64,000 nt of DNA, taken from Pseudoxanthomonas gei (GTDB lineage Bacteria; Pseudomonadota; Gammaproteobacteria; Xanthomonadales; Xanthomonadaceae). Below the pieces are notes generated by a model, which worked only from the letters and a program-made list of their open reading frames with translations, had not been told where the DNA came from and did not search any database. The stretch is from NCBI RefSeq assembly GCF_010119615.1, contig NZ_QOVG01000008.1, forward strand, positions 124,001-188,000. The letters run 5' to 3'. How positions within the stretch are numbered: position 1 is the stretch's first letter; each line of letters begins with the position of its first letter. The position numbers were made by a program, and so were the translations under genes. Shown here piece after piece: positions 60,305 to 63,728 of this stretch.

Positions 60305-60664
60305 ATGACCATCCTGTACGGCCTCAAGAACTGCGACACCTGCAAGAAGGCGACCAAGTGGCTGGATCGCTTCGGTATTGCCTATTCGTTCGTCGACTAC
60401 CGCGACGACAAGCGTTCTCCCGAAGTGCTGGTCGATTGGGCGAAGCAGGCGGGTGGCTGGGATGTGCTGGTCAACAAGTCCTCCACCACCTGGCGGCAGT
60501 TGCCGGCCAACCGCAAGGCGCCGGGCTCGGAAGCCGAATGGAAGCTCCTGCTGCGTGAGTATCCGCAGCTTATCCGTCGCCCGGTGGTGGTCACCGCCGA
60601 TGGCGTGATGACGCAAGGCTTCAGCGACAACGGCTTCAAACAGCGTTTCGGGGTTGCGAAATGA
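60305..60664 (+). CDS. ArsC/Spx-family protein (YffB-like)
   Basis: The 119-residue thioredoxin-fold protein has [20 protein letters not shown] at residues 6-25 (CxxC at 10 and 13), the ArsC-family [15 protein letters not shown] and the [16 protein letters not shown] segment. It belongs to the YffB branch, whose role is unknown and probably glutathione-linked; arsenate reduction is not implied. The stop overlaps the dapE start by 4 bp. yffB-dapE pairing is conserved in gammaproteobacteria. Confidence 0.9.
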
Positions 60665-61791
60665 GCCAAGTCCTCGACCTCACCAGCGGGCTGATCGGCC
60701 GTCGCTCGGTCACACCCGACGATGCCGGCTGCCAGGAACTTATCGCCGCACGCCTGCGCGACGCCGGTTTCGCCTGCGAGCAGCTGCGCTATGGACAGGT
60801 CGACAACCTGTGGGCCACGCACGGCAGCGGGCAGCCGGTGCTCGTCCTGCTTGGCCATACTGATGTGGTGCCACCGGGCCCGGCGCAGGACTGGACCAGT
60901 GATCCGTTCGTGCCCGTCATCCGCGACGGCGTGCTGTACGGTCGCGGCGCCGCGGACATGAAGGGCAGCGTCGCCGCGTTCGTCATCGCCATGGAACAAT
61001 TCGTCGCCGCGCATCCGGGACATGCCGGCACCATCGCGCTGCTGCTCACCTCGGACGAGGAGGGCGATGCGATCGACGGCGTGCGCCGCGTAGCCGACAC
61101 CTTCCGCGCGCGCGGCCAGGCGATCGACTGGTGCATCACCGGCGAGCCCTCGTCGACGCATCGGCTGGGCGACCTGCTGCGCGTCGGCCGTCGCGGCACA
61201 CTGTCGGCCACGCTCACGGTCAAGGGCATCCAGGGCCATGTCGCCTATCCGGACAAGGCCCGCAACCCCATCCACCAGGCGCTGCCGGCCCTGGCAGAAC
61301 TCACCGCGCGGCACTGGGACGATGGCTACGAAACCTTCCCGCCCACCAGCCTGCAGGTCTCCAACTTCAATGCCGGCACCGGCGCCAACAACGTGATACC
61401 CGGCGATGCCAAGGTACTGTTCAACCTGCGCTACAACCCGCACTGGAACGCGGCGCGGCTGGAAAGCGAGATCGGCGCCGTGCTCGATCGCCACGGGCTG
61501 GAGTACGAGCTGCACTGGCATCGCGGCGGCGAACCGTTCTATACGCCCGAAGGGCGGCTGCGTGCGATGGCACGCGAGGTATTGGCGGAATTCACCGGCA
61601 CGGCGCCCCAGGAAAGCACCGCCGGCGGCACTTCCGATGCGCGTTTCATCGCCCCGCTGGGTGCCCAGTGCATCGAGATTGGCCCGGTCAACGCCAGCAT
61701 CCACAAGGTCGACGAAAACGTGTCGGTGGTCGACCTGGAGGCTTTGCCCGCCCTGTACCGGAGGCTGATCGAAAGATTGTTGCTTGAGTAA
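60661..61791 (+). CDS. dapE: Succinyl-diaminopimelate desuccinylase
   Basis: DapE removes succinate from N-succinyl-LL-diaminopimelate, a late step of lysine and peptidoglycan precursor synthesis. The 376-residue M20 metallopeptidase has the metal and catalytic residues in [12 protein letters not shown] (His 66), [10 protein letters not shown] (Asp 99), [13 protein letters not shown] (Glu 133-134), and the dimerisation-domain segment [15 protein letters not shown]. Start ATG 60661 overlaps the YffB-like stop by 4 bp. Confidence 0.96.
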
Positions 61792-61815
61792 CTGATTGCA
61801 AAGCTTCCGGAACGC

Positions 61816-61845
61816 TTGCCAGCCGGCACCCGGACCGGTTAGTTT
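61816..61845 (+). promoter_or_regulatory. Candidate promoter of the asnB leader
   Basis: TTGCCA (61816-61821) and TAGTTT (61840-61845) are spaced by 18 bp. The -10 fits the TAnnnT pattern and ends 6 nt before the ATG of the leader peptide, so transcription would begin at or next to that ATG. Confidence 0.5.
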
Positions 61846-61851
61846 CGATCC

Positions 61852-61947
61852 ATGCCTCGCACCGCCACCACCATTCGCACCGTTTTGAACCGCCGCAATA
61901 ATGCGCGGACCAATAATCGTGCGCGACCGGTGCGGGTCTGCGACTAG
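61852..61947 (+). CDS. Asn-rich leader peptide of the asnB attenuator
   Basis: A 31-codon frame with ATG at 61852 and TAG at 61945-61947. It begins MPRTATTIRTVLN and has Asn at residues 13, 16, 17, 21 and 22 (VLNRRNNARTNNRAR), ending RVCD. Five Asn in 31 codons is far above normal, and four of them use AAT, which is uncommon in such a G+C-rich genome. An in-frame stop lies 4 codons upstream, so no longer frame exists. There is no Shine-Dalgarno; the predicted promoter suggests a leaderless message. The next gene is asparagine synthetase, so the peptide is most simply a sensor of charged asparagine tRNA. Confidence 0.75.
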   Translation: MPRTATTIRTVLNRRNNARTNNRARPVRVCD

Positions 61948-62006
61948 GCGAACAGCAACAAGCCGATCTCCAGGAACCCGCATCGCGAGATGCGGGTTTT
62001 TCTTTT
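61876..62006 (+). promoter_or_regulatory. asnB transcription attenuator (alternative hairpins and terminator)
   Basis: Three exclusive pairings are visible. Segment 1, CGCACCG (61876-61882), just before the first Asn codon, pairs with segment 2, CGGTGCG (61928-61934). Segment 2, as GGTGCGGGT (61929-61937), pairs with segment 3, ACCCGCATC (61976-61984), as antiterminator. Segment 3, AACCCGCATC (61975-61984), pairs with segment 4, GATGCGGGTT (61989-61998), followed by T-rich TTTCTTTTT, as terminator. A ribosome stalled on Asn codons would cover segment 1, free segment 2 and allow read-through into asnB. Confidence 0.75.
61975..62006 (+). terminator. Intrinsic terminator before asnB (attenuator arm)
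   Basis: A perfect 10-bp stem (61975-61984 with 61989-61998) with GCGA tetraloop and a T-rich tail lies 34 bp upstream of the asnB start and 184 bp after dapE. It could also end the dapE transcript. Confidence 0.9.
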
Positions 62007-62039
62007 TCCGTCTTTCCACATCAGATCCAGGAGCTCCCC

Positions 62040-63728
62040 ATGTGTTCCATCTTCGGCATCTTCGGCCTGCAGTCGGGCGATGACCTGCAGGGTCTCCGGC
62101 GCCAGGCGCTGGAACTGTCACAGCGCCAGCGCCATCGCGGCCCGGACTGGAGTGGGGTCTACATCGACGACCACGCCATCCTGGTGCACGAGCGCCTGGC
62201 CATCGTCGACCCGGCCGGCGGATCGCAGCCGTTGCGCTCGGCCGATGGCGGCCTGGCGCTGGCCGTGAATGGCGAGATCTACAACCACCGCGAACTGGAG
62301 AAGGAACTGACGCAGCCATACGGCTTCCTCACCGGCTCGGACTGTGAGGTGATCAATGCCCTGTATCGCGAAGACGAGCCGGCTTCGTTCCTCAACCGCC
62401 TCAACGGCATCTTCGCGTTCGCGTTGTGGGACAAGGTCGCGGGGCGGGCGCTGGTTGCACGCGACCCGATGGGCGTGTGCCCGCTGTACTGGGGCCATGA
62501 TCGCGAAGGCCGCCTGTGCGTGGCTTCGGAAATGAAGGCCATCAGCGGCCTGTGCGCCGACGTGGCGCAGTTTCCGCCGGGTCATTACTACGACAGCGCC
62601 AGCGGCGCGCTGGTCAAGTACTACGAGCGGCCGTGGCGCGACTACGACGCGGTCGCTGGCGTGGAGGTGGACGGGCAGGAGTTGCGCGAGGCTTTCGAGC
62701 GCGCCGTGCATCGCCAGCTGATGAGCGACGTGCCCTACGGCGTGTTGCTGTCCGGTGGGCTGGATTCCTCGCTGGTCACCGCAGTGGCCGCGCGCTATGC
62801 GCGCCATCGCATCGAGGAAGACGACAAGTCCGAAGCCTGGTGGCCGCGCCTGCACTCGTTCGCGATCGGTTTGAAGGGCTCGCCGGACCTGGCGGCGGCG
62901 GCGATTGCCGCCAAGGCGTTGGACACCGTGCACCACGGTTTCGAGTACACCTTCGAGGAAGGCCTGGATGCCTTGCCGGAAGTGGTCCGCCATATCGAGA
63001 CCTACGACGTCACCACCATCCGCGCGTCCACGCCGATGTACCTGCTGGCGCGTCGCATCAAGGCGATGGGCGTGAAGATGGTGCTGTCCGGGGAGGGCTC
63101 GGACGAGATCTTCGGCGGCTACCTTTATTTCCACAAGGCGCCGAACGCGCGCGAGTTCCACGAGGAACTGGTGCGCAAGCTCGACGCGCTGCACAACTAC
63201 GACTGCCTGCGCGCCAACAAGTCGATGATGGCCTGGGGCGTGGAGCCGCGCGTGCCGTTCCTGGATCGCGAATTCATGGACGTGGCGATGAAGATGGATG
63301 CCCGCTACAAGATGGTCGACAAGACCAGCACCGGCCCGGAGCGCATGGAGAAGGGCATCCTGCGCGCGGCGTTCGAAGGTTACCTGCCGGACTCGATCCT
63401 GTGGCGGCAGAAGGAACAGTTCAGCGATGGCGTGGGCTACGGCTGGATCGACGGCCTGAAGGAACATGCCGAAGCACGGGTCAGCGACCGCGAGCTGGGC
63501 GCGGCCGGCAAGCGCTTCCCGATCAATCCGCCCCTGACCAAGGAAGCCTATTACTACCGCAGCGTGTTCGAGGAGTTCTATCCCGGACCGGCCGCCGCTG
63601 AAACCGTGCCGGGCGGCAAGTCGATCGCCTGTTCGTCACCTGCTGCCATCGCGTGGGATGCGAGTTTTGCCGGGGCTGCGGATCCGTCGGGCAGGGCGAT
63701 CGCCGGAGTGCATAACGCGGCGATCTGA
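62040..63728 (+). CDS. asnB: Asparagine synthase B (glutamine-hydrolysing)
   Basis: AsnB makes asparagine from aspartate, ATP and glutamine. The 562-residue protein has the N-terminal glutaminase domain with nucleophile Cys2 (MCSIFGIFG), the HRGPDWSG loop, LAIVDPAGGSQPL and NGEIYNHREL, and the synthetase domain with the PP-loop SGGLDSSLVTAVAA (from about residue 238) and SGEGSDEIFGGYLYFHKAP. About 25 C-terminal residues (WDASFAGAADPSGRAIAGVH) match typical AsnB. AGGAG lies 7 nt before ATG 62040. An Asn-codon attenuator immediately upstream suggests control by asparagine supply. Confidence 0.96.
   Translation: MCSIFGIFGLQSGDDLQGLRRQALELSQRQRHRGPDWSGVYIDDHAILVHERLAIVDPAGGSQPLRSADGGLALAVNGEIYNHRELEKELTQPYGFLTGSDCEVINALYREDEPASFLNRLNGIFAFALWDKVAGRALVARDPMGVCPLYWGHDREGRLCVASEMKAISGLCADVAQFPPGHYYDSASGALVKYYERPWRDYDAVAGVEVDGQELREAFERAVHRQLMSDVPYGVLLSGGLDSSLVTAVAARYARHRIEEDDKSEAWWPRLHSFAIGLKGSPDLAAAAIAAKALDTVHHGFEYTFEEGLDALPEVVRHIETYDVTTIRASTPMYLLARRIKAMGVKMVLSGEGSDEIFGGYLYFHKAPNAREFHEELVRKLDALHNYDCLRANKSMMAWGVEPRVPFLDREFMDVAMKMDARYKMVDKTSTGPERMEKGILRAAFEGYLPDSILWRQKEQFSDGVGYGWIDGLKEHAEARVSDRELGAAGKRFPINPPLTKEAYYYRSVFEEFYPGPAAAETVPGGKSIACSSPAAIAWDASFAGAADPSGRAIAGVHNAAI

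Follow-up and report, generated by a model that had tools for sequence, protein, structure and literature searches.

The asparagine synthase gene asnB of Pseudoxanthomonas gei is very probably controlled by ribosome-mediated transcription attenuation that senses charged tRNA-Asn. The window that we analysed is the whole stretch of 64,000 nucleotides, and its 3' end contains, in this order, a dapE-like gene, an ORF of 31 codons, a terminator and asnB. The dapE-like gene (60661–61791; Pfam PF01546) encodes an M20 peptidase and has the same direction as the ORF, which we call the leader (61852–61947, forward strand). The leader was recognised from the ORF list, its relatives and codon counts; it is predicted to be leaderless and its translation, MPRTATTIRTVLNRRNNARTNNRARPVRVCD, contains five asparagines. 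It is followed by an intrinsic terminator hairpin of 13 pairs with a loop of 4 (61972–62001, forward strand), which has a T-rich tail up to about position 62006. The asnB gene itself (62040–63728, forward strand) encodes asparagine synthase B (glutamine-hydrolysing), as detected by NCBIfam NF006949 (863 bits compared to a cut-off of 499) and Pfam Asn_synthase, and its start at 62040 lies about 34 bp behind the T tract. A preliminary description of this DNA had already claimed a 31-codon leader with five Asn codons, four of them AAT, and an intrinsic terminator 34 bp before asnB, and we found both at these places. The folding z-score of 61852–62006 is -3.5, to which the terminator contributes part. 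The attenuator interpretation given in that description is supported by the sequence comparisons that we present here: the sequences contain the tested defining features of a leader-peptide attenuator, with a protector hairpin that is plausible.

From these elements, we infer how transcription start, ribosome stalling, termination and readthrough would be coupled, and in which direction the control would act. RNA polymerase would begin at the leader ATG or directly beside it, and a ribosome would load on the leaderless mRNA. If Asn-tRNA is plentiful, the ribosome would pass the Asn codons, reach the stop codon and cover a segment at the end of the ORF (region 2). With region 2 covered, regions 3 and 4 would form the terminator and transcription would end before asnB. 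If Asn-tRNA is scarce, the ribosome would stall on the Asn codons just upstream of region 2. This stall would break a protector pairing, region 2 would take region 3, no terminator would form and asnB would be transcribed.

We compared the locus to its relatives in two samples. For the first, we took the best 80 loci from at least 593 stretches matching AsnB, and found a leader upstream of asnB in 39 of them, that is, in all 38 loci labelled as Lysobacterales and in one locus (L007) that is labelled only as Pseudomonadota. The other 41 loci were counted as having no leader, including two (L078 and L073) with Asn-containing ORFs of doubtful standing. These 41 form the comparison set; a class-wide set would be too small, since 4 of 185 genomes gave an asnB match with E <= 1e-100. 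The second sample consists of 121 genomes of Lysobacterales, in 71 of which asnB was found; the upstream regions of 70 (the window's being excluded) were inspected and 34 contain a leader. When separated by family, the leader occurs in 16 of 17 loci of the window's own family (f1), in 14 of 15 of f12, in all three of f2, in one of 18 of f7 and in none of the 17 of f4, f5, f9 and f10. Family f1 is Lysobacteraceae, judging from leaders identical to those of named loci, and f12 is probably Rhodanobacteraceae. No leader was found in 13 further loci of f7 (one of which, L173, has only 95 nt of upstream sequence), which gives a total of 1 in 31 for this family. Altogether, there are 74 leader loci including the window, 69 of them with a distinct nucleotide sequence, and nearly all belong to three families of Lysobacterales. 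Leaders were chosen by inspecting tables made by a script, in which we looked for a run of Asn together with a start, promoter spacing and a terminator.

The preliminary description had named an Asn frame upstream of asnB, a terminator and compensatory changes in the stems as what the relatives should share. The frame is present in the 38 Lysobacterales-labelled loci among the best 80, a terminator was called in all of these except L031 and L033, and compensatory changes in regions 2 and 3 exist between clades. In two loci, L133 (f12) and L136 (f1), asnB is divergent (66 and 64% identity) and lacks a leader, and it is perhaps a replaced gene. We also observed three loci without a leader whose AsnB is 83, 73 and 74% identical to that of the window (L010, L028 and L038); these are labelled as Holophagales, Rhodococcus and Deltaproteobacteria, respectively, and may be either mislabelled contigs or cases of gene transfer.

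The five Asn codons of the window's leader, all on the forward strand, are N13 (AAC, 61888–61890), N16-N17 (AATAAT, 61897–61902) and N21-N22 (AATAAT, 61912–61917), with a gap of 9 nt between the two pairs. Most of 20 aligned sequences have NN at N21-N22, and most have NN or nearly so at N16-N17. In a single ORF of 31 codons, the chance of at least five Asn is 4e-4 and that of at least four AAT is 7e-5; these figures decide little for the window's ORF alone, and it is the relatives that carry the case. At least five Asn within 12 codons were found in 60 of the 69 distinct leaders, compared to 2 of 77 control loci that have asnB without a leader and where any open frame within 300 nt upstream of asnB was allowed. 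The two exceptions among the controls are L061 (Shewanella) and L073 (Photobacterium). In four leaders (L013, L015, L049 and L126), no more than three Asn fall within 12 codons, a number that 18 of the 77 control loci have as well; these four were included because of their promoter, position and terminator.

When AAC and AAT triplets are counted by frame across the 69 distinct leaders, 443 are found in frame, whereas the two remaining frames contain 2 and 6. Since AAC and AAT are both used and the triplets are distributed over the frames in this ratio, asparagine is conserved here, and not an A-rich RNA. The leader reading frame is under selection for asparagine. The peptides of the 69 leaders differ by genus except for the Asn runs and the codons of region 2, as exemplified by ...NNNNRNNLRANNRARPMRDC in Stenotrophomonas, ...NNNNRANNNANRWRA in Rhodanobacter and ...NNNNRNNASLPRAGD in Lysobacter. 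The Asn run is kept in each clade while neighbouring residues vary, and many leaders have Arg-rich tails.

The frame ratio and the neighbourhood of the leader both bear on the possibility that the terminator belongs to the upstream dapE-like gene and that the ORF is a chance frame. In the window, the dapE-like gene ends at 61791 and has the same direction, as would be expected under this reading. Among the 39 leader loci of the first sample, a dapE-like gene was found upstream in 13 and ends less than 150 bp from the leader in only five (L001, L002, L003, L015 and L055); there was no dapE-like match in the other 26, three of which (L005, L027 and L039) have less than 800 nt of upstream sequence. 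As the dapE-like neighbour is not fixed, the leader travels with asnB and not with the preceding gene, although its association with asnB is also how the loci were found. The Asn frame, the promoter spacing, the terminator and asnB persist across loci, and the ratio of 443 to 2 and 6 argues against a chance frame. A terminator of the dapE-like gene behind a chance ORF is thus contradicted by the comparative data and extremely unlikely.

The choice of Asn codons is less clear-cut than the frame. In 38 long non-overlapping ORFs, which were picked mechanically from the window, AAT makes up 0.7% of all codons and 34% of Asn codons. The earlier statement that AAT is rare at this G+C content is thus too strong. 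In the 69 distinct leaders, the share of AAT among Asn codons is 47% (210 of 443). For 40 leaders, we compared the leader to the asnB that follows it and found AAT in 121 of 257 Asn codons of the leaders and in 55 of 337 of asnB (Fisher p 5e-16; counted over the first 1,650 bases of each gene and over the whole asnB of the window). The preference for AAU may provide a slower stall site or may keep the run unstructured.

This enrichment of the less-used Asn codon would also fit a more general control, where the terminator reports translation, ribosome availability or any slow codons and the Asn run is merely a slow stretch; the Arg-rich tails of many leaders point in the same direction. Such a sensor would have no need of Asn. 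Yet the run consists of Asn in each clade although the flanking residues change, AAC and AAT are concentrated in a single frame (443 versus 2 and 6), and the downstream gene makes asparagine and is the sole asparagine synthase found in the genome of the window. We therefore consider general control unlikely. The enzymes encoded in this genome fit a sensor of asparagine: an AsnRS match was found above the cut-off, AsnB has a single match, and searches for GatB and AsnA found neither. With AsnRS present, GatB and AsnA absent and one AsnB, charged tRNA-Asn depends on free asparagine in this genome, and as AsnB is the only asparagine synthase found, a sensor of tRNA-Asn on asnB is the expected feedback. 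AsnRS was found above the cut-off in 39 of 40 genomes of the family. No Asn leader was found on asnS, where the 600 nt upstream contain at most three Asn per 12 codons in 12 of 12 loci.

Upstream of the leader, we predict a promoter with the -35 element TTGCCA (61816–61821) and the -10 element TTAGTT (61839–61844), both on the forward strand, with a spacer of 17 nt and with 7 nt from the -10 element to the leader ATG. TTGC occurs at this distance in 66 of the 69 distinct leaders (it is missing in L049, L109 and L134), a conservation that is partly circular because TTGC or TTGA helped to choose among in-frame starts. The T at -7 and the C at -1 were not used for this choice. In an ungapped alignment of the 69 leaders at the start codon, 87% have T at -35 and 59% have T at -36, both belonging to the TTGC element, 58% have T at -7 and 94% have C at -1; 68 leaders begin with ATG and the remaining one with GTG. 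The starts of nine leaders, for which the script chose another in-frame codon, were set by hand (L008, L015, L022, L101, L106, L109, L111, L121 and L124). With the -10 element about 7 nt upstream of the start codon, the first base of this codon or a neighbouring one is the expected transcription start. We thus predict that the leader mRNA is leaderless, with its start at or beside the A of the ATG. Tetramers resembling a Shine-Dalgarno sequence were found at -18 to -4 in 13 of the 69 leaders. In nine of these 13, the tetramer is part of CAGGAT at the expected place of the -10 element (Lysobacter and Thermomonas types), and it is possible that these leaders have a Shine-Dalgarno site. In L134, a promoter-like site is found farther upstream and not directly at the ATG.

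The antiterminator is the pairing on which the proposed switch would turn. Its first strand, region 2 (GGTGCGGGT, 61929–61937, forward strand), lies inside the ORF, and its end is 10 nt away from that of the stop codon, whereas region 3 (ACCCGCATC, 61976–61984, forward strand) is common to antiterminator and terminator. The preliminary description had proposed that these two segments pair by using the bases of the terminator, and we find nine pairs between them, one of which is G-U. A terminator was called in 66 of the 69 distinct leaders; in the other three (L031, L033 and L121), a hairpin is present but no T tract was called. In these 66 leaders, the distance from the end of the terminator to asnB ranges from 27 to 223 nt. 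In five loci of Rhodanobacter type (L017, L022, L023, L025 and L027), we spotted by eye palindrome units of the ATGGCC type between terminator and asnB, for example CCGGCCATCCATGGCC, which are repeated in some of them.

To find region 2 in the 66 leaders with a called terminator, we compared the segment from the last Asn codon to just past the stop codon with the 5' arm of the terminator and took the best helix. This helix has 5–9 pairs, and its mean score is 19.8 compared to 13.9 for shuffled sequences and 17.7 when arms are swapped with those of other loci; the 94th percentile of a leader's own shuffles is exceeded in only 40 of the 66. Covariation was estimated by anchoring the two strands at G[C/T][G/A]GG and CC[C/T]GC, which was possible in 55 of the 69 leaders (L011, L013, L022, L030, L031, L033, L110, L114, L117, L119, L121, L123, L125 and L126 were dropped). 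As both sides are anchored by motifs, the five core pairs are paired by construction, and the signal comes from the positions around them. Immediately before the core, 45 of 55 leaders have a pair (TA 19, GC 17, CG 4, GT 4 and TG 1) compared to a mean of 21.9 after shuffling, and immediately after it, 44 have one compared to 33.9; neither value was reached in 1000 shuffles. Farther out, the position three before the core is paired in 32 leaders compared to 19.3 (0 of 1000 shuffles) and that two before the core in 26 compared to 19.8 (8 of 1000). There is no excess at the two outermost positions after the core (+6 and +7), with 25 compared to 23.9 and 20 compared to 19.1 among the 55 leaders. 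These shuffles ignore kinship; when repeated on the 37 unique combinations, 27 pairs compared to 13.6 were found before the core and 32 compared to 26.5 after it, again with 0 of 1000 shuffles each. Inside the window's clade of 20 sequences, 90.9% of cells are paired, with one change on both sides, a number that is reached by 66 of 500 shuffles. The complementarity of regions 2 and 3 thus covaries between clades, with little variation inside the clade of the window.

The geometry of the leaders was evaluated with textbook values for ribosome footprints. In 60 of the 66 leaders, 9–20 nt separate the end of region 2 from that of the stop codon. A ribosome that has the last Asn codon in its A site leaves 80% or more of region 2 free in 52 of the 66, including the window; in the other 14, which are mostly of Rhodanobacter and Dyella types, 38–67% is free and earlier Asn codons fit better. 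A ribosome that has reached the stop codon covers 80% or more of region 2 in 52 of the 66, again including the window; in the other 14, where the stop codon ends 16–20 nt past region 2, 12–57% is covered, and eight of these are Stenotrophomonas or belong to its genus g29. The two tests thus fail in different sets of 14 leaders.

We then modelled the folding at the point where region 3 has been made and region 4 has not. The mean probability of the pairing between regions 2 and 3 is at least 0.5 for one or more Asn stalls in 62 of the 66 leaders, and no good helix forms at any Asn stall in L020, L022, L114 and L117. The pairing is absent with the ribosome at the stop codon in 66 of 66, which is true by construction, as the fold starts past the ribosome, and was unused as evidence. 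When no ribosome is present, the probability of the pairing is at least 0.5 in 56 of 66 leaders according to the thermodynamic fold. For the window, it is 0.96 at the best Asn stall and 0.81 without a ribosome. Because regions 2 and 3 pair in a ribosome-free RNA in 56 of 66 leaders, a branch in which the absence of translation leads to termination is unsupported by the model.

The protector hairpin, in which region 2 would be held before a stall, is plausible in the window's clade. Its outer strand, region 1 (CCGCA, 61893–61897, forward strand), pairs with 61931–61935, with 98% of cells paired in 20 sequences, and together with an inner hairpin this forms the conserved protector in the 20 closest relatives. 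For the whole protector, 93.9% of cells are paired in these 20 sequences and there are zero changes on both sides, which is why the hairpin falls short of proof. The preliminary description had proposed a different protector, namely 61876–61882 with 61928–61934. These segments are complementary; however, the leader contains two copies of the heptamer CGCACCG (61857–61863 and 61876–61882), so that 61928–61934 has two equal partners, and it is the other pairing that is conserved in relatives. The minimum-energy fold of the window uses the copy at 61857–61863, and among 22 loci that we folded the protector takes no single form.

A covariance model (R1) was built from the 20-sequence clade of the window. 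In the 121 genomes, it detects 14 asnB leaders of the window's clade with 114–168 bits, and the next two matches (47.1 and 42.6 bits) are also located at asnB; the remaining matches listed have at most 39.0 bits, and some of them come from the terminators of these leaders read on the opposite strand. Outside the own family, matches in 171 genomes of the class do not rise above 37.1 bits, and the second-best place in the own genome has 29.2 bits among the best 24 candidates scored. The E-values of R1 mean little because weak matches reach E 2e-8. R1 scored the best 17–24 candidates per genome and missed most leaders of other clades; it neither finds the whole set nor proves that there is one module per genome. 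A phage search gave no match.

The search of the own genome bears on a further possibility, that the locus mainly serves to produce the terminated leader RNA or its peptide, which would act in trans as a small RNA or protein. A leaderless ORF followed by a terminator would yield a short RNA, and trpL of Sinorhizobium meliloti provides a precedent (PMC7298713). If the product acted in this way, the variability of the peptide outside the Asn and region 2 codons would be hard to explain, as would the match between the Asn codons and the product of the downstream gene; furthermore, R1 found no second place above 29.2 bits among the best 24 candidates of the own genome. We thus regard a main role in trans as very unlikely, and note that such a role would be compatible with attenuation.

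Several upstream regions at the margins of the leader distribution were inspected individually. Among the 31 upstream regions of asnB in f7, L134 is the only one with an Asn ORF, a terminator and a region 2 pairing. In L078 (positions 1915–2214), which is Rubrivirga of the Bacteroidota, asnB is preceded by an open frame with four Asn (RNLTNANRNP), behind which lies a strong, GC-rich terminator; the 3' arm of this terminator is similar to a segment at the end of the ORF. L078 is a possible independent Asn attenuator, represented by one locus with an ambiguous start codon. L073 (positions 2366–2447), from Photobacterium iliopiscarium, has an ORF of 26 codons that includes 7 Asn and stops 54 nt short of asnB; no terminator was called there, and the ORF may be due to chance.

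Attenuation at the leader of asnB would work like known leader-peptide attenuators, and what appears to be new is the specificity for asparagine. In the attenuators of enteric bacteria for His, Leu, Thr, Trp and Phe, a leader with codons for the amino acid that is the product precedes the biosynthetic gene, and the RNA can form alternative pairings. The asnB leader resembles these in its short ORF, its codon run, its alternative antiterminator and terminator pairings, to which a protector pairing may be added, and its biosynthetic gene. It differs in that it would sense asparagine, is predicted to be leaderless and has region 2 inside the ORF, and in that the branch for an untranslated leader is unsupported by the model. 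In Firmicutes, Asn genes are controlled by T-boxes, which sense the charging of tRNA-Asn, as proposed for the asnB leader, but do so by direct binding of the tRNA to the RNA. A T-box or known riboswitch is ruled out here, as a comparison of 4227 Rfam families to 61400–62400 gave no match at the gathering score; two sub-threshold matches (E 0.14 and 0.2) belong to unrelated families.

No asparagine leader peptide is described in open-access titles and abstracts among the matches listed, and the preliminary description knew of no established asparagine case in proteobacteria. Two comparative surveys (Vitreschak et al. 2004; Lopatovskaya et al. 2010) could contain an earlier mention of Asn. Neither PMC1262725 nor PMC2659441 contains the terms asparagine or asn.

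Three described systems are close to the asnB leader. In Sinorhizobium meliloti, attenuation at trpL is likewise proteobacterial, and transcription of the leader begins directly at the ATG of its ORF, as we predict for asnB; the system differs in its specificity for tryptophan, its length of 14 residues and the reported roles of RNA and peptide in trans (PMC7298713). In Streptomyces lividans, the leader peptides LeuL, TrpL, IlvL, ThrL and MetL are transcribed leaderless; they are similarly rich in the respective amino acid and several have a terminator, whereas they belong to Actinobacteria and the eight leaders listed there include no asparagine case (PMC8079986). Lastly, the uORFC-8-2 motif, a Cys leader of cysS in Rhodobacterales for which stalling at Cys codons was proposed, is also proteobacterial, was also found by comparison and would also act by stalling on codons of the sensed amino acid; its amino acid is cysteine and its gene encodes a synthetase, in contrast to the biosynthetic asnB (PMC8632094).

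It is tempting to go one step further and regard Asn attenuation as a separate class that arose repeatedly, with an ancestral leaderless form in Lysobacterales, independent forms in L134 and L078 (Rubrivirga) and AAU preferred because of slower stalls. We put this forward only tentatively and consider it possible rather than probable. If attenuation of asnB by charged tRNA-Asn is true, asparagine joins the amino acids that are sensed by leader-peptide attenuation. The leader set is a natural series of about 70 variants, and the Asn codons, region 2 and the position of the stop codon can be mutated. It would also offer a clean proteobacterial case of how attenuation works on an mRNA that is predicted to be leaderless. 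For Xanthomonas-like bacteria, whose asparagine supply consists of one enzyme in the genome examined, the leader would provide a simple, well-defined feedback switch.
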